A stretch of DNA of 64,000 nt from Acidobacteriota bacterium. GTDB taxonomy: Bacteria > Acidobacteriota > Blastocatellia > Chloracidobacteriales > JADJPF01. The stretch covers positions 1-64,000 of the forward strand of contig JACQZQ010000001.1 in NCBI GenBank assembly GCA_016213785.1, given 5' to 3'. Shown here one piece after another: positions 8,789-43,165 of this stretch (its first letter is position 1; each line of letters begins with the position of its first letter). Below the pieces are notes generated by a model, which had not been told where the DNA came from, searched no databases, and saw only the letters and a program-made list of their open reading frames with translations. Made by a program: the position numbers and the translations under genes.

Positions 8789-10759
8789 CTACTCAAGCCC
8801 AAAATCTACTATACGTAATAACCCAGCTTTATTAAGTGCAACTACGGTTTGAATAGTTTCTAAGTCTCCTTGTAAACAGTGTAAACACTCGCTTAAAGGG
8901 TGTGTACCATCAAATAGTTGTAATATACGCATAGTTTCATCTGAAAAATCAGCAGAGAAAAATTCAGGATTATCTTCTGTGTTTACAGACATAAAAACTT
9001 CGCCTGGGGGCAGTTGCTCAATAAGTCTTAATTCCTCATCACGTCTACGCATTGCTTCCATTAAAATGCCTTGAATGCTTTGTTTAATGGCAAAAGCGCG
9101 ATCTACAGTTTGGCTATGAAAATTAAAATTACCACCATCCATACACCAATTAACTAAACAATAAATAGCTGTTTTACCAGCTAGGTCTTCAAATTCGGCA
9201 TCAATAATACGGCCTTGGTCAATATAAATTACTCCAAAACGACCAGAACGAGATAGATGTAGTACTCCAGATTTATTACCAGAGGCTAGAGATTGTAATA
9301 AGTCTGGTAAAGGCATTTCAGAGAGTTTTCCGCGAACATCGCCAGCTAGGCGCACTTTTTGGAGCATTCGCCGAAGCCTGATGCTTATTTCCCCTATTTC
9401 AAAGGGTTTTAGCCAATAGTCTTCTACTCCACCTTGTAATGCTTGAAGTTTATTATCTGGTTCTACACAGCCTGTTAAAAGAATAAAAGGGATGTCGGCT
9501 AAATTATCATTGCTTTGCAAGTATTCAAATAACTCATAACCATTTTTACGGGGCATGCCTACATCAGAAATTATAAAACTTGGACTAAAGTCTTTTAATT
9601 TTTCTATAGCCTCTTCGCCATCTATAGCTTCAATTACACGACAACCAAAATCTGATAGAAGTTCTACTAGTAGCTCTCTTACTGCTGCATCATCATCTAC
9701 TACCATTACAGACAAGTCACTAAAGTTTTGTTTTTCTGTAGGTCGAAAACTTCCTGTGTTACGCCCAGAAAAAGAAAGTTTAGGAAATTCACCAGTAGAA
9801 CGTGTTTCAGAAGATGTACTACTAAGAGCAGGGAACTGTCCTGTTGTTCTTTTAACTACCATTGTGGGAGTTAAGCTAGGAATTTCTCTAGGTGTAATAA
9901 ATTTAGCATCAAAATTTGGTATTGGGCTATCAACAGGAAAAACTAACCTAGGATCTTCTTTAGGAGTAAGGAATTTACTTTCTTCATTTTTTAGTTGGTT
10001 GCTAGGCTCAAATAAAAATTCATTTGCTAGTAAATTAGGTGGTAGATTAAAATTAGTACTTATACTAGAGGGGGATTTTTGGTTATGGTCAAAAGTAATG
10101 TTTTCTTCTTCGATTAGATCATTTATTAAAGGCATACTCTCATCTGAATCATCATTTGCAACAGAAACTAGTAATTCTACCTGATGATTTAATAAAGCTT
10201 TTTCTACATATTCTTGGGTTGTAGCAGATAAGTTTAATTGTGTTGTTAGACGGCAATTATCTAGTATTAAAAGGACTTCATGAAGCCAATTTAGGTCTAT
10301 AGGGCAGGATGAAATCAAATTTTCAAAATAATGTTTAGCTTCTTCTATTTGTGTATTACTTGAATATATTTCAGCAAGCTGTTTAATTGGCCTAAGTGTT
10401 TTATCTAGACGAGATTGCTTACAATATATACTAATTATTTCCTTTAAGTTATTATCTGTATTACTAGGTTGCAGTAATTCTGCTTTATGTAAGTATGCTA
10501 GGGCTTGATCCAGATCTTCAGTTTCATTAAAATATTTGGCAAGTTTAATATAGGTTTGTCTTAAGGTTTTAATATCATTATTTAGTGCAGCTATTTTAAG
10601 AGAATCCTTTAAGGCATTCATATCTAAATTGTTATTATCTGTTGGTTGCACAGAATTTATTACAGTAGAATCACTAGCGTTTTCCATTTGTGTACAAATA
10701 GATAGGTTAGCGTCATGATGGTCTTGGCAAACCGGGCAATCTTTATTAACTGTTATCAT
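8789..10759 (-). CDS. TPR - receiver - DUF4388 (PATAN) response-regulator-like protein
   Basis: 656 residues. The N-terminus carries a CPVC pair (C8, C11), then TPR-like helices (about 47-200), then a Ser/Pro/Thr-rich linker (about 205-345). A receiver domain (about 350-465) has the acidic triad D355-D357, phosphoacceptor D399, T429 and K451 all in place. A DUF4388/PATAN domain follows (about 478-575, PLPDLLQSLASGNKSGVL and GVIYIDQGRIIDAEF) and then a winged-helix-like tail. PATAN receivers are known from Myxococcus, cyanobacteria and Acidobacteriota in gliding and exopolysaccharide control. No histidine kinase lies nearby. The linker holds repeated RxTG.FP-like patches (TTGQFPALS, STGEFPKLS), possible docking or phosphorylation sites. 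Confidence 0.9.
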   Translation of the reverse strand: MITVNKDCPVCQDHHDANLSICTQMENASDSTVINSVQPTDNNNLDMNALKDSLKIAALNNDIKTLRQTYIKLAKYFNETEDLDQALAYLHKAELLQPSNTDNNLKEIISIYCKQSRLDKTLRPIKQLAEIYSSNTQIEEAKHYFENLISSCPIDLNWLHEVLLILDNCRLTTQLNLSATTQEYVEKALLNHQVELLVSVANDDSDESMPLINDLIEEENITFDHNQKSPSSISTNFNLPPNLLANEFLFEPSNQLKNEESKFLTPKEDPRLVFPVDSPIPNFDAKFITPREIPSLTPTMVVKRTTGQFPALSSTSSETRSTGEFPKLSFSGRNTGSFRPTEKQNFSDLSVMVVDDDAAVRELLVELLSDFGCRVIEAIDGEEAIEKLKDFSPSFIISDVGMPRKNGYELFEYLQSNDNLADIPFILLTGCVEPDNKLQALQGGVEDYWLKPFEIGEISIRLRRMLQKVRLAGDVRGKLSEMPLPDLLQSLASGNKSGVLHLSRSGRFGVIYIDQGRIIDAEFEDLAGKTAIYCLVNWCMDGGNFNFHSQTVDRAFAIKQSIQGILMEAMRRRDEELRLIEQLPPGEVFMSVNTEDNPEFFSADFSDETMRILQLFDGTHPLSECLHCLQGDLETIQTVVALNKAGLLRIVDFGLE

Positions 10760-31119: not shown

Positions 31120-32361
31120 TTATTGTTTCTTTTTAGTAGAAGTAAAAGTTTTTACTAGTTCTTTAGTAGCTTCTTTTGCTTTTGAAAGACCTACTACACC
31201 TTCTTTTACTTGATGGATTACAGTTTCTAGATTAGTAAAATGTATATTTTGAGCAGCTAGCCAATCAGAAGCTTCTTGGGTTTGATCTATTTTAAATTCT
31301 AAAATTTGCTGACAATACTCTAACCATTCAAGAAGTTTTTCACTTTCATCTTTAATAATTTCGCTATTAGGAAAATCTCCTAAATGACTAACTTCTTGTT
31401 TCTTTGGTGCTTCAGCCCCAGCATTATTATAGTACCTCTCAATAATAGAAGAATTACCTAATAATTGGGTACGTTTATGAGTTTTTTCTGGGCTTTGTTC
31501 AGGATTAAAGGCTGTAATGGTTTGAAGCATACCTGTTAATCCTTTTGCATCCTTGCTTACTTGTAGAGCATCTCCTGAAAACTTAGCAATAACGCAGGTA
31601 ATATTATCTGTTCCTCCACGTTGCTTAGCAATATCTACTAGTTTTTGGCAAGCTAAATGAGGTTCCATATTAGCACTAAAAAAGAGCATCTCTCCTGTTG
31701 TTACTAAGTTAGATAAACCATCTGAGCATAGTAATAAAATATCTTCTTGTTTAAGTTGAAACATACAAACCGCAACTTGAACAATTTCTTGTGCTCCAAT
31801 AGATTGCAGTATAACATTTCTTCTAGGGTGTACTACGGCATCTTCTGGCCTAAGCAAGCCTCTTTCAACCAGTTGAGCCACAAAAGATTGGTCAGTAGTT
31901 ACTTGTTTAATATTACCACCGCGAATAAGATAAGCTCGACTATCGCCAACCTCACCAATATAAACCTCATCATCTTCAATAAGTGCGGCTGTTACTGTTG
32001 CACCCATCCCTTTTAATTGCGGACGAGCTTCGCCTTCTTGCCATACAACGTGATTTGCCTCTTCTACAGCAGCTACAACCCTATCATGAGGAGAGATCTT
32101 TCGTGACATACGCATTAAAGCATCTTTTATTGATAATACCGTTAGTTCACTAGCAAGTTCACCATATTCAGCGCCACCCATTCCATCAGAAACCACTAAT
32201 AACAAAGAGTTTTCCCCAACATCGTGAGATGTCTCACACCAAGCAGGTAAGTTTTGACCCGCAACTATATCTGCTAGGATAAAATTATCTTCATTATTTT
32301 TACGAACTATACCAACATCGGTAATTGCTGCGATAGTACAATTTATCGTGCTTGCTGCCAT
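31120..32361 (-). CDS. PP2C-family Ser/Thr protein phosphatase
   Basis: 413 residues from the ATG at 32361, which has GGGAG at good spacing. A GTG 22 codons upstream (32427) keeps the frame open but has no ribosome site. The PP2C domain (about 8-255) has the metal and phosphate motifs R20-NNED, SDGMGG (58-63), GDSRAYL (139-145), CSDGLSN (202-208) and GGTDNIT (239-245). A Lys/Glu-rich C-terminal region (about 260-413) with helical character has no known domain. It is Mn/Mg-dependent and soluble, and should reverse the window's PknB-type kinases. It is convergent with the sigma-54 activator and upstream of rtcB's tail on the same strand. Confidence 0.93.
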   Translation of the reverse strand: MAASTINCTIAAITDVGIVRKNNEDNFILADIVAGQNLPAWCETSHDVGENSLLLVVSDGMGGAEYGELASELTVLSIKDALMRMSRKISPHDRVVAAVEEANHVVWQEGEARPQLKGMGATVTAALIEDDEVYIGEVGDSRAYLIRGGNIKQVTTDQSFVAQLVERGLLRPEDAVVHPRRNVILQSIGAQEIVQVAVCMFQLKQEDILLLCSDGLSNLVTTGEMLFFSANMEPHLACQKLVDIAKQRGGTDNITCVIAKFSGDALQVSKDAKGLTGMLQTITAFNPEQSPEKTHKRTQLLGNSSIIERYYNNAGAEAPKKQEVSHLGDFPNSEIIKDESEKLLEWLEYCQQILEFKIDQTQEASDWLAAQNIHFTNLETVIHQVKEGVVGLSKAKEATKELVKTFTSTKKKQ

Positions 32362-32479
32362 AACCCAAACTCCCACACTTTGCTCGTTTTTATTTTTGAA
32401 AGTTTTTCTGATGTTACATAATACCACAATAATACTATATAGCCAGTAGTAGCCAGATTACTAACAAAGTTTAGTTCAA

Positions 32480-34460: not shown

Positions 34461-37400
34461 ATGGGATTATCATCATATGTAAAAACTAGCATAAAAGCTA
34501 AAAGCATAATAATGTCAGTACTAATACTGGCAACATTTTTCACCATGGTGCCAAAAGCATCGTTAAATACAAATAATAAAAATGCTTTTCCTCTTGATAC
34601 TAATACTAGCCATATAGCACAAAACTTGCTAATAAAACAACGTAATCCTGTGGTTAATGAAGGTAACTTAATTACTTTAACTGCTATAGATATAAGCGGT
34701 AATAATGTTACTGGAACTCGTTGGTCTTCTGGTAGCCCTGATGTTGCACAAGTAAATCCTCTGACAGGTGAAGTTACAGGTATTAAACAAGGTTTTGCTA
34801 CTATTACAGCAACTCGTAATAATGAAAGTGTTTCTACTTTTGTAGTTGTTACTAGAGTTAAAAAAGGTAAAGGTGAAAGAGTTCCAGGTGATTCTAAAAT
34901 AGATAATGCAGGTAAGTTATACTTAAGCAACCCAAGTCAAAATGTGATTTTAGTTGCAGATAAAACCCTTAATGGTCCTATACAGCTTTTTGCTGGTGAG
35001 CGCAATACAGGTGGAAATCAAAATGGTTTTCGAGGACAAGCTCGTTTTGCTGGGCCTACGGCAATTGCTATAGATAATAGTCCTAGGGGAGGACTCTATA
35101 TCACTGATACGCTAAATCATCAAATCCGTAAAATAGATTTTAATGGTCAAGTAGAAACTCTACTTGGAACAGGATTTCCTGGTAAAAGCCTCTTTGATAG
35201 TGATGGAGCACTTTCAAGTGATAATATTCTCTTTAATAGCCCACGAGGAATTGTAGCTGATAGTGGAGGTAATCTCTATATATCTGATACAGATAACCAT
35301 GCTATCTATTATGTTGATTTTGCTAGAAATAAAGTTAGTCTACTTGCAGGTCAGCCTGGGGTAAGCGGCCAAGATGATGGAATAGGTGGAGATGCTAAAT
35401 TTAAGCGTCCTGCTGGGCTTGCTCTTAGCTCAGATGGTCGATTACTTACAGTTGCAGACCAAGATAATAACCGAGTTCGCCTTATTGAAATAAGCCGCCA
35501 AGCTGATGGTAGACCTACTGCTACTGTATCAACTTTAGGGACTGGTTCTGGAAATACTTCTCCTACTAAAGCAGTTCAAAATAATGGCATCTTTTTTGAT
35601 CAACCTCAGTCTGTAAGTCTAGATGCTCTAAATAATATTTATGTAGTTGATAATTCTGGAGTTCAAATAGTTTTACGCTCAAATAAACAAGTTCCTCAAG
35701 TTGTTCAACTTGCACAACCTGGAGTTAGTTTTAATAAAGCTGTAAATGTAACAGTAAAAGGGACAGAAACCTTTGTACTTGATGCAGAAGCCGCTTCTGA
35801 AGACGATGCAGTTAGTGTTGTTACTGTGGGCGGCCCTAAAATAGATAGTGTAACTCCTAGTGTTTTTCGTATGGAAGGCGGAGCAGATGTAGTTGTTACA
35901 GGTTCAAACTTTGCTCCTGAAACAATGGTTACTTTTGGAGATACCCTTATTACACCTCAGGTAGTTAGTGCTACAGAAATAAGATTTAAGGTTTCTCCTC
36001 AGGCTTCTCCAGGAACTAAAACTTTTTCACTTTTAACTCGTGGAGGTATTGCTCAAAAAGAGTTAAATATTATAGCTAAACCTGCTTCAGACTTAAATTT
36101 TGAAGAAATAACTACTATTGCTGGTGGGCTTTCTTTTTCTGGTGATGGTGGTAGTGCACTAGAAGCTAATCTAGGCCTTAGCACTAGGGTTGCTCTTGAT
36201 AATTTAGGTAATATTTTTATTGCTGATGTAATTTCTGGAAGAGTACGTCGTGTTAATGTAGAAACAGGTATGATTAATACTGTAGTTGGTGGAGGAACTT
36301 CTTTAAATGATGGTGTAATTGGTAATGTTGCTAGAATCCAGCCTAGTGCTATTACATTAGACAGCGGTGGAAATATTTTTATTAGTGATAGATTAACAGA
36401 GAGTATTAGACGTATTGATGCTGTTACTAACATAGTTACTACTGTTGCTGGGGGCAAAGGTCGTGCTTTTGGTGGTGATGGTGCAGCAGCTACAAGCGCT
36501 GGCTTTGGAGACACTCCAAATAGTTTACTATTTGATCGCAGTGGTAATTTATTTATCAGCACTAATAATCGTGTTCGTCGTATTGATGCTCAAACATCTG
36601 TTATAAGCACTGTAGTTGGAAATGGTAATCAAGGTTTTAGTGGTGATGGTGGAGTAGCTACAAATGCTAGTTTAGCTATACCTTCAGGACTGGCTTTGGA
36701 TTCTAAGGGTAATCTCTTTATTGCAGATGCTTTTAATGGTCGTGTTCGCCGTGTTGATGGGCAAACAAATATAATTACTACAGTTGCTGGTAATGGTGGT
36801 TTTGCTGGTGGAAGTGATAGAGATGGTAAACCTGCAACAAGTATTGCACTGGTTGTCCCTTCTGCTATTGCCATTGATAGTCAAGATAATTTACTTGTTT
36901 CAGATTTCTTAATTTCTCGTGTTAACCTCTCTACAGGAATTATTAACATAGTAAAACAAGATCCCCCTTCAATGAAATGTGGTGATAATGATATTCCTGA
37001 TTTTCTATTTACCAATCCTGGAACAACTATGGCTTTAGATGGTAATGGAAATTTATTTGTTTCTAGCGAAAGGCGTATAAGAAAGTTAAGTGTAAGTACA
37101 GGAGCAGTTTCTACTGTAGCAGGTAAAAAGCTTATAGCTATTCCTGGGGATAAGGGTTTAGCTACAAATGCTACTTTAGGTGCTGCAATTGATGTTACTA
37201 CTGATAGTCAAGGCAATATGTATATTGCAGACTTTGATACTGCTGTTATTAGACGTATTGATGCTAAGACAGGAATTATTGATCGCTTTGCAGGTGTTGG
37301 AAAAAATGATTGTAATTTTGCTTCAGGCGTTCCTAATGGAGATGGTGGACAAGCTTTAGCTGCTAATTTCCTTAGCCTAACTGCTTTAGCTACAGATAAT

Positions 37401-38474
37401 AAAGGTAATGTATTTGCAGCAGATTTTTCTGAGGGGAAAATTCGACGTATTGATACTAGTACAAATATAATTACTACTTTTGCAGGCGATGGCTCACTAG
37501 GAGATGATATTACTGGGGATGGTGGGCTTGCAACTAAAGCTGGCTTAGGTGGTGTAAATGATATAGCTGTTGATACACAAGGCAACCTAATTATTGCTAG
37601 CCAAAACTATGTACGTAAGGTTAATGCTACTACAAATATTATTACTACTATTGCAGGTAATGGTAGTAAAGACTTTGGAAAAGATGGGGATATGGCTACT
37701 AAAGTAGCTGTTTCACCAGGAAATATTACAGTTGATAGTAAGAATAATATCTTTATTGCTGAACGTGGAATGATAATAAATAACAAAGTAACAGGGGGCG
37801 TAGTTCGTCGTATTGATGCTAATACTGGGACTATAACAACAGTTGCAGGTAGTGGTAAGACACTCTTTAGCCCTGATGGAACTTTGGCTACAAATGCAGG
37901 TTTAGGTTCTGTTCGTAGTGTAGAAGTAGATGGAGCAGGTAACTTATTTATTAGCGCTACAGAATTTGATCCTGAAAACTTTTTAGGCCCACTAAATGCC
38001 ACAATCTTTAAGGTAGATGCTAGCACTAAAACAATCAGCACCTTTATAAAAGGAAAAGAAACCTATCAAGGTGATGGTGGTTCAGTAGCTAATGCAGGTT
38101 TTGTTGGTGTGCCAATTCTATCCTTTGCCCCAAATGGTGATCTACTATTTTTAGACTTAAATATACCTTCGGTTGCTGCTCTAAGATTAGTACATTTACC
38201 AAAAACTAGTGGTAGTCCAGTAAATACAACAATTTCTATTAGTAATGCTGTTTATCTTAAACCAAATCTATCTATTGATGGTCAAGGTTTTGGAACTTCT
38301 GCAACAAAAGTTATGGTAAATGGTTCAGATATAAGTAGTTTTATTTCAACAAATAATGATAGTAAGTTGGTTTTTACTGGAAACCGTAAAAAGCTTAATG
38401 TAAAGAAAGGCGCTAATCAACTTACAGTAACTAACTCTAGTGGTGCAACAGCTTCTTTCCAATTTACTTTTTAG
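34461..38474 (+). CDS. Large secreted NHL-repeat protein with Big2 and IPT/TIG domains
   Basis: 1337 residues. A hydrophobic signal-type segment (about 16-33) leads to a Big2 Ig-like domain (about 60-130, NPVVNEGNLITLTAIDISG). NHL repeats follow (first set about 150-410), then an IPT/TIG domain (about 468-550, PKIDSVTPSVFRMEGGADVVVTG contains its core). A second, longer NHL set covers about 555-1240, each unit of the form D..GN.FI.D....R.RRID..T..I.T.AG.G..G..GDGG.A..A. A TIG-like C-domain ends the protein. NHL sets form beta-propellers, so at least two propellers are likely. It is extracellular or periplasmic, with no catalytic motif. AAGGAG precedes the ATG; the gene stands alone, with its own terminator. 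Confidence 0.9.
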   Translation: MGLSSYVKTSIKAKSIIMSVLILATFFTMVPKASLNTNNKNAFPLDTNTSHIAQNLLIKQRNPVVNEGNLITLTAIDISGNNVTGTRWSSGSPDVAQVNPLTGEVTGIKQGFATITATRNNESVSTFVVVTRVKKGKGERVPGDSKIDNAGKLYLSNPSQNVILVADKTLNGPIQLFAGERNTGGNQNGFRGQARFAGPTAIAIDNSPRGGLYITDTLNHQIRKIDFNGQVETLLGTGFPGKSLFDSDGALSSDNILFNSPRGIVADSGGNLYISDTDNHAIYYVDFARNKVSLLAGQPGVSGQDDGIGGDAKFKRPAGLALSSDGRLLTVADQDNNRVRLIEISRQADGRPTATVSTLGTGSGNTSPTKAVQNNGIFFDQPQSVSLDALNNIYVVDNSGVQIVLRSNKQVPQVVQLAQPGVSFNKAVNVTVKGTETFVLDAEAASEDDAVSVVTVGGPKIDSVTPSVFRMEGGADVVVTGSNFAPETMVTFGDTLITPQVVSATEIRFKVSPQASPGTKTFSLLTRGGIAQKELNIIAKPASDLNFEEITTIAGGLSFSGDGGSALEANLGLSTRVALDNLGNIFIADVISGRVRRVNVETGMINTVVGGGTSLNDGVIGNVARIQPSAITLDSGGNIFISDRLTESIRRIDAVTNIVTTVAGGKGRAFGGDGAAATSAGFGDTPNSLLFDRSGNLFISTNNRVRRIDAQTSVISTVVGNGNQGFSGDGGVATNASLAIPSGLALDSKGNLFIADAFNGRVRRVDGQTNIITTVAGNGGFAGGSDRDGKPATSIALVVPSAIAIDSQDNLLVSDFLISRVNLSTGIINIVKQDPPSMKCGDNDIPDFLFTNPGTTMALDGNGNLFVSSERRIRKLSVSTGAVSTVAGKKLIAIPGDKGLATNATLGAAIDVTTDSQGNMYIADFDTAVIRRIDAKTGIIDRFAGVGKNDCNFASGVPNGDGGQALAANFLSLTALATDNKGNVFAADFSEGKIRRIDTSTNIITTFAGDGSLGDDITGDGGLATKAGLGGVNDIAVDTQGNLIIASQNYVRKVNATTNIITTIAGNGSKDFGKDGDMATKVAVSPGNITVDSKNNIFIAERGMIINNKVTGGVVRRIDANTGTITTVAGSGKTLFSPDGTLATNAGLGSVRSVEVDGAGNLFISATEFDPENFLGPLNATIFKVDASTKTISTFIKGKETYQGDGGSVANAGFVGVPILSFAPNGDLLFLDLNIPSVAALRLVHLPKTSGSPVNTTISISNAVYLKPNLSIDGQGFGTSATKVMVNGSDISSFISTNNDSKLVFTGNRKKLNVKKGANQLTVTNSSGATASFQFTF

Positions 38475-38505: not shown

Positions 38506-38533
38506 AAAAGTAGGCCAAATTGGCCTACTTTTT
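38506..38533. terminator. Terminator after the NHL-repeat gene
   Basis: AAAAGTAGGCCAA (38506-38518) and TTGGCCTACTTTT (38520-38532) form a near-continuous palindrome ending in a T-run, 31 bases past the stop. The remaining AT-rich bases to 38789 show no gene; they should hold the kinase promoter. Confidence 0.88.
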
Positions 38534-38789
38534 CTTTGTAATAGAAATTATTGCTCCATTTTCTTATCCTTGGAATTAGTACTTTTTTATTAGTTTTTAT
38601 TTTCTATTGAGTTTTAACTTTATATTTTTTAATCAAGTCAGCGCAGTTTTTAAAATCACAAAATTGCCAGATTGACACTTAAACTTATTTTTGTTACTTT
38701 CCAAATATTAAATCTGTTGCCAATGCCCTAAATTAAAACACCAAACATTTATATAAAATATATAAAACTTAAAACGTATAGGGAAAACT

Positions 38790-41243
38790 ATGGCATTAGT
38801 TGGGGATGTAAAAGATTTACCGTTACCAGATATAATTCAAATTAATTGCCTTGGGCGAAATGTTGCACGACTACTTGTGCGCTATCCTGTTGGCGATGGG
38901 GTGTTTTATTTTCAAGATGGAGAGATCTATGATGCCCGTCTAGGCGAACTCTCAGGAGTAAAAGCCATTTATGAAGCACTTAAATATGAAGAAGGTGCTT
39001 TTCGTATTGATGCTTCAGTAACTACTTCTGAAAGAACTATTTTTAAGTCTTGGGCAGAAGTTCTAATGGATGGCTTACGCTATTTAGATGAACAAAATGC
39101 AGGAATCTCTCCTAGTAAAAGCTATGCTAATTTTAATCCAGATGACTTTTTAACCCGTCAAACTCAAGGTATTCCTGTTATAGGTAAACAAAATAAAGAC
39201 TATATAGGAAAAATAGTTAATGATAAATATAGAGTTGTTAGAAAGATTAAGGAAGGTGAATTAGGGACAATGTATCAGGCTACTCATATCCAAATGGATG
39301 TGTCAGTAGCAATAAAGATAATGCATCCTTACTTAGTGACTGATCAAGCCGCTGTAGAACGTTTCCGTCGTGGAGCACATGCTGCTGCTAAAATACACCA
39401 TCCAAATGCTATTAGTGTTCTAGATTTTGGAATTACTCGTGATGATATAGTCTATCTAGCAATGGAATATCTAGAGGGTGAAACTTTTCGCGAACGTTTG
39501 CAAAGACAGAAAAAAATTATCCCTAAAGAAATGTTAAAGATCCTTAAACCTGTTTGTTCTGCTCTAGAGGCTGCTCATAGAGATCAAATTGTTCATAGAG
39601 ACTTAAAACCAGAAAATATAATGATTTATGAGAGTGCAGGAGAAGAACTAGTAAAAGTCTTAGATTTTGGTATGGCAAAACTAAAATCTTTAGGAACAGA
39701 AGGAGTCTTAACCTCTCATGGCTTAATGCTTGGTACTCATAGTTATATGTCTCCAGAGCTTTGCGAAGGAGTAGATATAGATAATCGCTCGGATGTTTAT
39801 GCCTTAGGTATTATTATATATGAAGCTTTAACTGGAAGCCTTCCTTTTAATGACCCAACTCCTGTTGGAATGGCCTTAAAACACATTGGTAGTAGACCTA
39901 GTTCCCCTAGAATTCTAAGCCCAGAACTTTCTGAAAATGTTGAGAAAGTTCTTATGAAAGCGCTAGAAAAAAGGCCAGAAGCTCGCCAACAATCAGCACT
40001 TGAGCTAGCTAAAGAGTTTGAGCAAGCATTAAGTTTTAAAGGCTTTCCTAGCAATTTACCTAAAACTAAACCTGTAAGCAATCTAGCAAACTCTTTTGCC
40101 TCAGAACCTTTTATTACTCAAAGCGTTCCAGAGATTTTTAGTGGGGAACTTAGAGAATCGCGTAGCCGTGTTCCTGGTACAGATCCTTTTTCTCCACCAA
40201 ATAAATTTGTTAATGATCCTCAAGTAAAACGACCAAACACGTCAGAAAACCCTGTTGGAAAAGTTCCAAGCCCTAATCCAACAAACCTTGAGGCTAAACC
40301 ACTAGAAAATAAAGCAAAGGCTGAACAAATATACCCCAAAACTCCTTCAGTAAATCCTATAGAAACTATAGAAAATAACCTTCAACCAGATAATGTTGTA
40401 AGAGTTGAGCCAATAGCAGTTAAGAAAAAAAGTAGCTTAGTGGAATCAAACCTATTTTTGTTTTTCCTCTCAGCTTTGATTGCAGGGACTTTATTTTTAA
40501 TGGTCTTTTTGATCTGGCAATATTTTAAGGGTGTGCCGCAAACTAGTAACACTAATAAAAGTTTTCTTGCTCCTCAAATGATAAAGATTCAAGGTGCAAG
40601 TTTTAGGATGGGACGCGATGAAGATAAAGATGTTCCTTTAGTAGAAACCCCATCTCATGAAATAACAGTAAAAGATTTTTTTTTAAGCCGTTTTGAAATC
40701 ACTAACAAAGAATATCAAGAGTTTGTAATTGACGCAAATTATAGACCTCCTTTGGGTTGGGGAGGAACAGAACTAGCTAAAGGAACAGAGAATTTACCTA
40801 TAGTTAATATTACTTGGGAGGATGCAAATTACTACTGTCAATGGCTTTCTAAAGTTACTAAAGAAAACTATCGTCTTCCTACTGAAGATGAATGGGAGTT
40901 TGCTGCTAGAGGAACTGAAAATAGGCTTTATCCTTGGGGTAATTCAGCTACCTCCACAGTTTTTGCTAGTACTAGCTTAGGCTTAACATCCCCTGTTAAT
41001 AGCGCTTCACTCTTGGCTGATAGAAGCCCTTTTGAAATTGTTGGGCTTGCAGGCAATGTAAGCGAATGGACATCAAGCCTCTATCAACCTTATCCAGGTT
41101 CAACTAGTAAAATAGATTGTAGTGGTTGTTATACTGTAAGAGGCGGTAATTTTAAGTCTCAACCAAATGAATTAGTAAGTACTTTTCGCAGAGGTAGCAA
41201 AAAAGCCAGTGAACTTATAGGTTTTCGTGTAGCTAGAGATTAA
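38790..41243 (+). CDS. DUF4388 - Ser/Thr kinase - TM - formylglycine-enzyme-like fusion
   Basis: 817 residues with four modules in order. A DUF4388/PATAN domain (about 1-100) comes first. A PknB-type kinase (about 147-415) has VAIK Lys176, HRDLKPEN (269-276) and DFG (292-294), but its Gly-rich loop is degenerate (IKEGELGTMY). A Pro/Ser/Asn-rich linker leads to a single membrane helix (about 553-577). A C-terminal FGE-sulfatase/SUMF1-like domain (about 596-817) shows FRMGRDEDKD, RLPTEDEWEFAARG, PWGN, GLAGNVSEWT and VRGGNFKS. The kinase is thus cytoplasmic and the FGE fold periplasmic. In such fusions the FGE fold is usually a ligand-binding or carbohydrate-related sensor rather than an oxidase; this is inference. 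An M23 peptidase gene follows 56 bases later. Confidence 0.93.
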   Translation: MALVGDVKDLPLPDIIQINCLGRNVARLLVRYPVGDGVFYFQDGEIYDARLGELSGVKAIYEALKYEEGAFRIDASVTTSERTIFKSWAEVLMDGLRYLDEQNAGISPSKSYANFNPDDFLTRQTQGIPVIGKQNKDYIGKIVNDKYRVVRKIKEGELGTMYQATHIQMDVSVAIKIMHPYLVTDQAAVERFRRGAHAAAKIHHPNAISVLDFGITRDDIVYLAMEYLEGETFRERLQRQKKIIPKEMLKILKPVCSALEAAHRDQIVHRDLKPENIMIYESAGEELVKVLDFGMAKLKSLGTEGVLTSHGLMLGTHSYMSPELCEGVDIDNRSDVYALGIIIYEALTGSLPFNDPTPVGMALKHIGSRPSSPRILSPELSENVEKVLMKALEKRPEARQQSALELAKEFEQALSFKGFPSNLPKTKPVSNLANSFASEPFITQSVPEIFSGELRESRSRVPGTDPFSPPNKFVNDPQVKRPNTSENPVGKVPSPNPTNLEAKPLENKAKAEQIYPKTPSVNPIETIENNLQPDNVVRVEPIAVKKKSSLVESNLFLFFLSALIAGTLFLMVFLIWQYFKGVPQTSNTNKSFLAPQMIKIQGASFRMGRDEDKDVPLVETPSHEITVKDFFLSRFEITNKEYQEFVIDANYRPPLGWGGTELAKGTENLPIVNITWEDANYYCQWLSKVTKENYRLPTEDEWEFAARGTENRLYPWGNSATSTVFASTSLGLTSPVNSASLLADRSPFEIVGLAGNVSEWTSSLYQPYPGSTSKIDCSGCYTVRGGNFKSQPNELVSTFRRGSKKASELIGFRVARD

Positions 41244-41299
41244 TAACTAGAAAATTTTGTTTTAATTTATATTCTATGTAGTAATTAAAACAATAACTT

Positions 41300-41992
41300 A
41301 TGGTCAAACAATTTTTTAAGCTAATTTCTTTGACACTTTGGCTAATATTAAATATAGTTTCTCCTCTGCTATTTGCACCATCAACTAAACTTTCAAGTCA
41401 AATATATAACTCTAAAAAAACTACTAATTTCTTTAACCAAGATAAATCATTTACTACAAATATTGTGTCTAAAGAGTTTACTTACCCTATAGGAAAGAAT
41501 GGTTATGCAACTCAAAAAAGAGATGGTGATGGTTGGTATAATGCCAGAGATTTTCGAGAGCTTAATCATTTAGGGGAAGATTGGAATAAAGAAACAGGAG
41601 GAAATACAGATTGTGGTCTACCTGTTCGTGCTATTTCAAATGGGAAAATTATTTTTGCTGGAACTAACATAGAAGGATGGGGAAATGTCTTAATCATTCG
41701 CCATCTTTTAGAAGATAAAACAGAAATAGAGTCTCTTTATGGGCATCTTAAATCTTTTACTAAAACCTCAGGCAATGTAAATCTAGGAGAAATAATAGGT
41801 TTAATAGGTGATGGTGGAGGTATTTATAGCTGTCATTTGCATTTAGAAATTCGCCTATCAAATTGTCCTAGCTGGGGGCAAACCGGCCTAGGTTATAGCC
41901 TTGATTCTAAAGGCTGGGTAGATCCTTCATCTTTTATTGATTCTTATCGTCAAAAAAGAACAAGCAAATCCCAAGTTTTCAAAAGAAAATAG
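41300..41992 (+). CDS. M23-family (LytM-type) metallopeptidase
   Basis: 230 residues. A signal-type hydrophobic N-terminus (about 8-27) sends it to the envelope. The peptidase domain (about 85-215) has the zinc ligands H90 and D94 (NHLGEDW), then SLYGHLKSF (H149) and CHLHLEIR (H179, H181), a complete M23 site. It should cleave peptidoglycan cross-links or other glycyl peptides. Its position right after the kinase-FGE gene on the same strand suggests co-expression and a link between envelope sensing and wall remodelling (inference). Confidence 0.92.
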   Translation: MVKQFFKLISLTLWLILNIVSPLLFAPSTKLSSQIYNSKKTTNFFNQDKSFTTNIVSKEFTYPIGKNGYATQKRDGDGWYNARDFRELNHLGEDWNKETGGNTDCGLPVRAISNGKIIFAGTNIEGWGNVLIIRHLLEDKTEIESLYGHLKSFTKTSGNVNLGEIIGLIGDGGGIYSCHLHLEIRLSNCPSWGQTGLGYSLDSKGWVDPSSFIDSYRQKRTSKSQVFKRK

Positions 41993-42091: not shown

Positions 42092-43165
42092 ATGAAAATT
42101 ATTTCAAGTTTAAGTGATGATGTTTGGCACAAATTAAGTAATAGCTCTTATGAATGGTGGTATTTTGATGCTATTTCTGAAGATGGAAATTCGCTTGTTA
42201 TAACCTTTTTCTATGGCCTACCTTTTTCTCCTTACTATAATAAAAAAATAACTAAAGATAAAACACAAGATACTCAATTGGCTGACCCTAAAGAACATGT
42301 TGCAATTTATTTTTGTCTTTATGGAGCAGGTAAAGCTAATATGCCGCTAGCTTATGTACTTAATGAATATTCTAGTAATTATAATTTTTCTAAAACAGAG
42401 CCTTTGGTAAATATAGGAAAGACTTCTTTAAGTTATGATGCTAATAGAGGTTTTTTAATTAAGCTTGACGCTTTGGCTCTTTGGGGACGCAGGGTTAGCG
42501 GGGAACTAGTTTTTAAGCCAGATTTTTTTCCTTCTATAAATTGGCCTGACTCAAATAGTGAGCATTTATGGAATTGTGTTGCTCCTAGGTGCAAAGTCAA
42601 CGGAGAGTTGACTATTACTGGGCTGATTAAAACACGTAAAATCCTTTTTCGCGGGTTGGGCTATCATGATCATAATTACGGCTCTCATCCTATGCATTAT
42701 GATATGAAAAGATGGCATTGGGGAAGGCTTCATACTAAAGAGCTTACGGCAATTTACTATATCATTGAAAATAATATAGTAAATAACATTGAAAATAAAA
42801 ATGACCTAAAATCCTTTTTAGCTGTTTTAGATAGTAAAGGAAAAATGCTTTATTTAGGCCCAGCTAAATTTGATTATCAGGAAAAAAAAGACCTAATGGG
42901 TGTTAAGTATTTTTCGGAAATTAATCTAACTAGTGAAAATAATAGAGTTTGTAATCTTAAAGTTATTAAAACTCGAACTGTTGATCAAGGGCCTTTTTAT
43001 CTTAGGTTTTTAGCTAAGCAACAGTTAACAATAGACTTAAAAGATATTGAAAATATTGATGCAAATAATCAAGAAATTGGATTTGCAGAGGCTTTTGAGC
43101 CTGCAAAGCTTTTTATTAAAGCATTTTGGCCGTTTATTAAAATGCCAATAAGGAAATTTTATTAA
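42092..43165 (+). CDS. CrtC/AttH-like lipocalin-fold protein (carotenoid 1,2-hydratase-like)
   Basis: 357 residues. The N-terminal YEWWYFDAISEDGNSLVITFFYG segment holds the WYF-DA signature; the middle has GLGYHDHNYGSHPM and RWHWGRLHT. This pattern is typical of hydroxyneurosporene synthase (CrtC) and AttH-like proteins, which share a double lipocalin-like fold. CrtC hydrates carotenoid 1,2 double bonds, but there are no carotenoid genes in the window, so the substrate is open. There is no signal peptide. It lies 15 bases upstream of sat on the same strand, an uncommon pairing. Confidence 0.78.
   Translation: MKIISSLSDDVWHKLSNSSYEWWYFDAISEDGNSLVITFFYGLPFSPYYNKKITKDKTQDTQLADPKEHVAIYFCLYGAGKANMPLAYVLNEYSSNYNFSKTEPLVNIGKTSLSYDANRGFLIKLDALALWGRRVSGELVFKPDFFPSINWPDSNSEHLWNCVAPRCKVNGELTITGLIKTRKILFRGLGYHDHNYGSHPMHYDMKRWHWGRLHTKELTAIYYIIENNIVNNIENKNDLKSFLAVLDSKGKMLYLGPAKFDYQEKKDLMGVKYFSEINLTSENNRVCNLKVIKTRTVDQGPFYLRFLAKQQLTIDLKDIENIDANNQEIGFAEAFEPAKLFIKAFWPFIKMPIRKFY

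Follow-up and report, generated by a model that had tools for sequence, protein, structure and literature searches.

The VAIK, HRDxxxxN and DFG motifs are those normally used in calling a protein kinase active. Among bacterial kinases, the DYD family is described in part of a pseudokinase review as being without the alphaC glutamate (PMC12599244), and for the human formylglycine-generating enzyme (FGE) an excerpted source gives the catalytic residues Cys336/Cys341 (PMC4505483). PATAN domains belong to a different setting: in Synechocystis PilB is bound by PATAN (PMC10519157, in part), and homologs of MglB are encoded near PATAN genes (PMC4316618, in part). Here, we describe a gene in the first 64,000 nucleotides of contig JACQZQ010000001.1 from an Acidobacteriota genome (this whole stretch is referred to as the window, and is contig 6 of the 132 contigs of the 6.4-Mb genome), the 817-residue product of which brings a PATAN domain, a kinase, a transmembrane helix and an FGE-like domain together in one chain.

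The Pfam matches are strong for all three domains. DUF4388/PATAN (PF14332) covers residues 5-102 (E = 3e-16, 60 bits against a cut-off of 25), Pkinase residues 147-400 (E = 3.8e-46, 158 bits against 31.7), and FGE-sulfatase (PF03781) residues 594-816 (E = 1.1e-43, 150 bits, above the curated cut-off). A long variable linker lies between the kinase and the membrane helix, which appears as a single hydrophobic peak at ~550-580 and as a helix at 555-580 in the full-length AlphaFold model. Because KKK immediately precedes this helix, the sequence suggests an orientation with the N terminus inside and the C terminus outside. The initial annotation had read the same order of modules, followed by an M23 peptidase gene, and this layout is borne out; its placement of a degenerate-loop kinase inside the membrane and an FGE fold outside is also supported, by the lysine that replaces the first loop glycine and by the suggested membrane topology.

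Origin and distribution of the PATAN-kinase protein

The nearest relative of the kinase's PATAN is PATAN-A, a 262-residue protein encoded on another contig of the same genome (C33, L071:4331-5119), with 63% identity over 110 residues. When residues 1-147 were searched against the 162 genomes of the class, 63 genomes matched at E ≤ 1e-8, and beyond the window kinase and its ortholog in the only other genome of that genus (G001, hereafter the sister genome) the nearest matches were small stand-alone proteins found throughout the order, at 54-64% identity over 104-131 residues. In a tree of 59 PATAN domains, built on just 109 columns and weak at many of its deep branches, both kinase PATANs fall inside the PATAN-A group, whose 16 rows include one from outside the order, at a starred node with support 99/98, and the PATANs of two kinase-first proteins (L100 and L108) lie far from them. 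Thirteen PATAN-A proteins share 57 invariant positions, of which the window kinase keeps 48 and the sister kinase 46; the 28 other PATANs of the genome keep 8-29. One of these 28 belongs to the receiver protein encoded at 8789 of the window, and the initial annotation had supposed that the kinase signals into the PATAN network of this protein. The supposition does not hold up, as the PATAN at 8789 keeps only 20 of the 57 positions and falls outside the PATAN-A group, with which the kinase PATAN clusters; as a candidate for the nearest PATAN it is rejected by both tree and counts. A comparison with solved structures by sequence gave a best E of 0.18 and nothing useful. Nesting in the tree and the retained invariants both place the domain in the PATAN-A subfamily, with a kinase after the PATAN in place of the C-terminal roadblock domain, and at the level of sequence they show it to have been copied from the PATAN of the order-wide PATAN-A.

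The copy occupies a position that is otherwise filled differently. Seven of the 12 aligned kinase-FGE relatives have a CPxC...CPxDG-like, zinc-ribbon-like N terminus (L076, L077, L079, L082, L083, L242 and L166), and an N-terminal PATAN was found in none of the 12 examined; the alignment shows the PATAN standing where most of these relatives bear the zinc-ribbon-like segment. The separate modules abound in the genome, which yields 165 matches to the 817-residue query, most of them to the kinase domain, together with 45 places that match the PATAN and 42 that match the FGE-like domain at E ≤ 1e-10. Kinase and FGE occur together in at least 15 frames, as judged from matching contigs and open-frame lengths, and at least 10 other proteins join kinase and PATAN, all with the kinase first (six recognized by an HRDxKP motif, with 30 of the 45 PATAN places read, one by its open reading frame and three by Pfam). 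One further candidate, on contig C90, shows no DUF4388 at E ≤ 0.001. The same contig and frame matching found PATAN, kinase and FGE together in no other frame of the genome, and in three other PATAN frames longer than 500 residues a kinase HRD or DFG motif was not found. Read from these searches, the modules are common, and their order in the 817-residue protein appears to be a local, genus-level remix of known parts. Two other loci with such combinations were also seen. L239:2067-4580 encodes a kinase-receiver-PATAN protein that joins Ser/Thr and two-component signaling in a single chain, and a dense cluster of PATAN and kinase-PATAN genes lies at G000:C31:142500-160000 (L237), where one protein has DnaJ and TPR; the 2039-residue frame given by the search for the kinase at 156279 does not fit the open reading frame seen there.

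The sole full-length ortholog is that of the sister genome, at 76% identity, so that the protein occurs in 2 of 14 genomes of the order, its own included. Five of the 14 match at E ≤ 1e-90, and matches that start at residue 1 are confined to the two genomes of the genus. With residues 1-420, 13 of the 162 class genomes match at E ≤ 1e-80, and only the window and sister alignments span PATAN and kinase; in a sample of 396 genomes from the phylum, the only alignment starting in the PATAN, among the matches listed, came from the genome itself. As the best 11 candidates per genome were scored in the class search and the best 4 in the phylum sample, diverged PATAN-kinase fusions could be missed, and within these limits the domain order appears restricted to this genus. 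The initial annotation had not recognized the full architecture from other proteins, and among the genomes searched it is indeed not widespread. The two orthologs are 88% identical over the PATAN and 89% over the kinase, with values of 55% for the linker, 58% for the membrane helix and 72% for the FGE-like domain. The nonsynonymous and synonymous divergences (dN/dS pairs), obtained by simple Nei-Gojobori counting and approximate, with high dS, are 0.06/0.77 for the PATAN, 0.07/0.75 for the kinase, 0.34/0.94 for the linker and 0.19/0.89 for the FGE-like domain. Since dN is much lower than dS for each domain compared, the gene is not a decaying one; by these estimates it is under purifying selection, and it is not a chance open reading frame.

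Kinase core and proposed signaling to the PATAN-A complex

The position of the alphaC glutamate, a normally invariant residue that pairs with the beta3 lysine, is occupied by glutamate in all 72 other aligned kinases, a set made up of 60 top-similarity kinases of the genome and 12 kinase-FGE relatives (8 from the genome and 4 from G001, G012 and G013) and not the whole kinome, and by Gly195 in both the window and sister kinases. The codon is GGA in the window and GGT in the sister, so the glycine has persisted through a silent substitution. The glycine loop, IKEGELG, has lysine for its first glycine in both orthologs (G in 57 of 70 ungapped rows) and glutamate at its fourth position (G in 61 of 70). 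The alignment shows a core more degenerate than first noted, in that the alphaC glutamate is lost along with the first loop glycine. The residues K176 (VAIK), R270, D271, K273, N276, D292, G294 and E323 (APE) are normal, and as nothing is lost from VAIK, HRD or DFG, the three-motif rule given in the review excerpt cited above (PMC12599244) does not class the kinase among the pseudokinases. The best match in the PDB, by sequence and by fold, is PknB; the score against the PknB PASTA kinase model NF033483 is 307 bits, below the equivalog cut-off of 450, and Pfam finds no PASTA repeats in the protein.

The donor of the PATAN stands at the head of a gene run that continues with a 438-residue protein, a 162-residue protein, a second PATAN protein (PATAN-B), an sCache-HAMP membrane protein and a TPR protein. 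In G004, too, the first five of these genes are recognizable by order and length. The 162-residue protein is roadblock-like by eye, and a Pfam scan gave no match for it. The model of PATAN-A is poor in its PATAN part, and its C-terminal domain, used alone, is a helix-strand-strand-helix-three strands-helix arrangement of moderate confidence. Foldseek matches the model to roadblock/LC7 structures, MglB among them, with a probability of 1.00; as modeled, PATAN-A carries a C-terminal roadblock/LC7 fold. The cluster is order-wide (L071:4331-10655 and L073:1598-6645), with PATAN-roadblock, roadblock-like, second PATAN and sCache-HAMP genes and no recognized output domain, and no description of a PATAN-roadblock/sCache-HAMP cluster was found in the literature searched. 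Both genomes of the genus encode a different PATAN protein 3.8-3.9 kb upstream of pilB (L312:2927-3688 and L313:220-1035), and pilT- and pilC-like open reading frames follow at the pilB locus of the window's genome. By analogy, this pilB-linked PATAN and the MglB and PilB precedents may bear on the 817-residue kinase.

We propose, at about even odds, that the protein is a genus-specific, single-pass membrane sensor that passes an envelope signal to a PATAN-A/roadblock/Cache-HAMP complex by docking, with its kinase activity crippled or conditional. A common kinase-transmembrane-FGE receptor would have acquired a copy of PATAN-A's PATAN as its N terminus. The FGE-like domain would bind an envelope or extracellular ligand, and the ligand state would cross the membrane helix to the kinase fold, which keeps its nucleotide-binding and catalytic Lys/Asp/Asn and may be weakly active, conditionally active or an ATP-gated switch only. 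The PATAN of the kinase would then dock on the binding partner or partners of PATAN-A in the PATAN-A/roadblock-like/PATAN-B/sCache-HAMP/TPR cluster, giving the PATAN-A complex a second input. The likeliest final output, from known PATAN and roadblock biology, would be control of type IV pili or of polarity. Several points weigh against this proposal. The protein is present in two genomes only, with the sister copy on a contig of coverage 2.4. Neither of the two PATAN-A loci examined has pil or mgl genes beside the cluster, and an output on pilus or polarity would for that reason be indirect. With VAIK, HRDxxxxN and DFG intact, the kinase may simply be active. Finally, the AlphaFold model has a kinase fold of high confidence, a PATAN with per-residue confidence (pLDDT) mostly <50 and an FGE-like domain that is low or mixed, and given its poor PATAN it is of no use for the PATAN-kinase interface.

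A bolder version, which we hold to be rather doubtful, is that of an ATP-gated, catalytically silent transmembrane receptor, in which a kinase fold that lost its alphaC glutamate would have been rewired by the PATAN swap, and the outside ligand would control a PATAN-roadblock complex, and by way of this complex a small GTPase or the pilus motor, by competitive docking and without phosphorylation. Such a receptor, if real, would be a bacterial counterpart of the pseudokinase receptors, in one genus only. The PATAN can be traced to a single protein of a single conserved cluster, and because the donor can be named, there is a concrete partner hypothesis for a PATAN; if docking occurs, it would link kinase receptors to PATAN-roadblock signaling. 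In addition, a kinase that is under purifying selection and otherwise intact, but has lost this one core residue in both orthologs, offers a clean test of the need for the alphaC glutamate in bacterial receptors.

Alternative explanations

The most serious alternative, to which we give appreciable but lesser weight, is an ordinary active receptor kinase that tolerates the loss of the alphaC glutamate or makes up for it, for instance through E157 of the loop, and whose PATAN recruits substrates from the PATAN-A complex for phosphorylation. The intact Lys176, Asp271, Asn276, Asp292 and Glu323, the confidently modeled fold with PknB as its best match, and a PP2C-type phosphatase gene at 31120-32427 are all consistent with activity, and kinases without the alphaC glutamate but with compensating contacts are discussed in a portion of the same review (PMC12599244). 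However, a glutamate found in 72 of 72 related kinases has been lost in both orthologs, along with the first loop glycine.

It is improbable that the kinase and the M23 peptidase form an envelope-sensing pair, with the kinase reporting to the receiver protein at 8789, as the initial annotation had it. The two genes share a strand, with 56 bp between them, and the peptidase retains its zinc motifs (HxxxD and HxH) and has a hydrophobic N terminus. However, the 86 nt between the kinase stop and the contig end in the sister genome are unlike the window and contain no M23 start, and at E ≤ 1e-6 no relative was found in 12 of the 13 other genomes of the order, namely the sister genome (87% complete) and 11 of the remaining 12, with a weak generic match in G013. 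Among nine scanned genes adjoining kinase-FGE relatives, none encodes M23 and four encode PEGA domains, and the retention of few PATAN-A positions by the 8789 protein argues against the second half of the idea. The M23 protein is accordingly rejected as a pathway partner and the adjacency is probably incidental, a verdict that is good but not final, as there is one ortholog only, on a low-coverage contig. Within the start of the M23 frame, a promoter-like site (11/12) at 41330-41358 was noted, and the gene may be served by a promoter of its own or begin further downstream; the next gene, at 42092-43165, encodes a protein weakly like carotenoid 1,2-hydratase and a Diels-Alderase N-terminal domain.

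The remaining alternatives concern the outer domain, which we interpret as a binding or redox-sensing domain. Its best solved match is the FGE domain of the ToxD kinase (7spq, E = 5.7e-25), followed by SUMF2 and SUMF1. That it is a functional enzyme, one that generates formylglycine or carries out a related oxidation, fits the strong FGE-sulfatase match but is very unlikely. The cysteines of the protein are at 20, 256, 325, 683, 777 and 780, with none beyond 780 and none after the RGG motif, where we take the catalytic pair of the aerobic enzyme to lie (after the GG motif); on these cysteine positions, and with that assumed placement, an enzyme is rejected, and the NCBIfam models listed for FGE-fold enzymes all score below their cut-offs. 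Least credible of all is a variable region of a diversity-generating retroelement (DGR), as in cyanobacterial kinase-CLec proteins. In its favor are the shared fold class, the existence of DGR kinases (PMC7517822, in part) and a Treponema variable protein that matches weakly (E = 0.0007). A DGR variable protein has a hypervariable C-terminal region next to a reverse transcriptase, and an alignment of the two orthologs shows a conserved C-terminal segment without hypervariation. In a separate observation, several kinase-FGE genes are followed within 0-35 bp by a gene (L078:2911-4299, L081:9033-10469, L084:5243-6628 and L085:8340-9902) for a secreted-looking PEGA-domain protein of ~460-520 residues, which is likely a conserved receptor partner of kinase-FGE proteins.

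Locus features and comparison with known systems

The coordinates of the features are collected in the table. The 60-bp block upstream of the kinase gene is kept in the sister genome, as seen by pairwise alignment; a promoter scan of the region found no excess of sites, and a hairpin scan found 2 against 2.2 expected. The gene upstream differs between the two genomes, NHL repeats in the window and CHAT-TPR in the sister. That of the window, at 34461-38474 directly 5' of the kinase gene, encodes a 1337-residue protein with Big_2, TIG and many NHL/teneurin-like repeats.

Table. Positions in the window of the kinase gene, its domains and key residues, and adjoining elements.
Feature	Position	Strand	Basis
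PATAN-kinase-transmembrane-FGE-like protein, 817 residues	38790..41243	+	Open reading frame, Pfam, full-length ortholog in G001 (76%)
PATAN (DUF4388) domain, PATAN-A subfamily	38802..39095	+	Pfam, tree, invariant positions
Hanks-type kinase domain, residues 147-400, PknB-like	39228..39989	+	Pfam, structure matches
Degenerate glycine loop KEGELG (K154, E157)	39249..39266	+	Kinase alignment
Codon GGA, Gly195 at alphaC glutamate position	39372..39374	+	Kinase alignment
HRD catalytic aspartate D271, intact	39600..39602	+	Kinase alignment
DFG aspartate D292, intact	39663..39665	+	Kinase alignment
Transmembrane helix, residues 555-580	40452..40529	+	Model helix, hydrophobicity
FGE/SUMF1-like domain, residues 594-816, without cysteine after RGG motif	40569..41237	+	Pfam, sequence
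CSGC motif (C777, C780) of FGE-like domain, kept in sister	41118..41129	+	Alignment, sequence
Probable promoter/operator: conserved block, two TTGCCA copies at its ends, TTGACA-17-TACTTT inside	38664..38723	+	Pairwise alignment with sister, sequence
Probable terminator: hairpin with T-rich tail, 12 pairs, between NHL-repeat gene and kinase gene	38506..38532	+	
M23 peptidase gene, adjacent, not conserved with kinase, probably incidental	41300..41992	+	Pfam Peptidase_M23 (E = 1.2e-13), comparisons

The docking sensor that we favor can be set beside several described systems. The Hanks receptor kinases of the PknB/PASTA type share a cytoplasmic PknB-like kinase, one transmembrane helix and an extracytoplasmic sensor, whereas the window protein has an FGE-like rather than a PASTA sensor, an N-terminal PATAN and no alphaC glutamate. 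Fusions of an FGE-like domain to a Ser/Thr kinase are known from its own paralogs, from cyanobacterial DGR kinases (kinase-FGE/CLec) and from the ToxD kinase (7spq), but 7 of the 12 relatives have a CxxC-rich N terminus, and four are followed by a PEGA-domain gene, unlike the window gene. In the Synechocystis response regulators PixG, PixE and LsiR, the PATAN likewise serves as a docking or output module, according to portions of two sources (PMC7690835 and PMC10519157); the window protein has no receiver domain, and its PATAN is attached to a membrane kinase. PATAN-A itself (L071:4331-5119), with 262 residues, has a roadblock domain in place of the kinase, transmembrane helix and FGE-like domain. 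Finally, the bacterial Ser/Thr pseudokinases (the DYD family and EssB/YukC) are similar in having a membrane-linked kinase fold with a damaged core, which in DYD, as excerpted, includes loss of the alphaC glutamate (PMC12599244), whereas the window kinase keeps its beta3 lysine, HRD and DFG intact.

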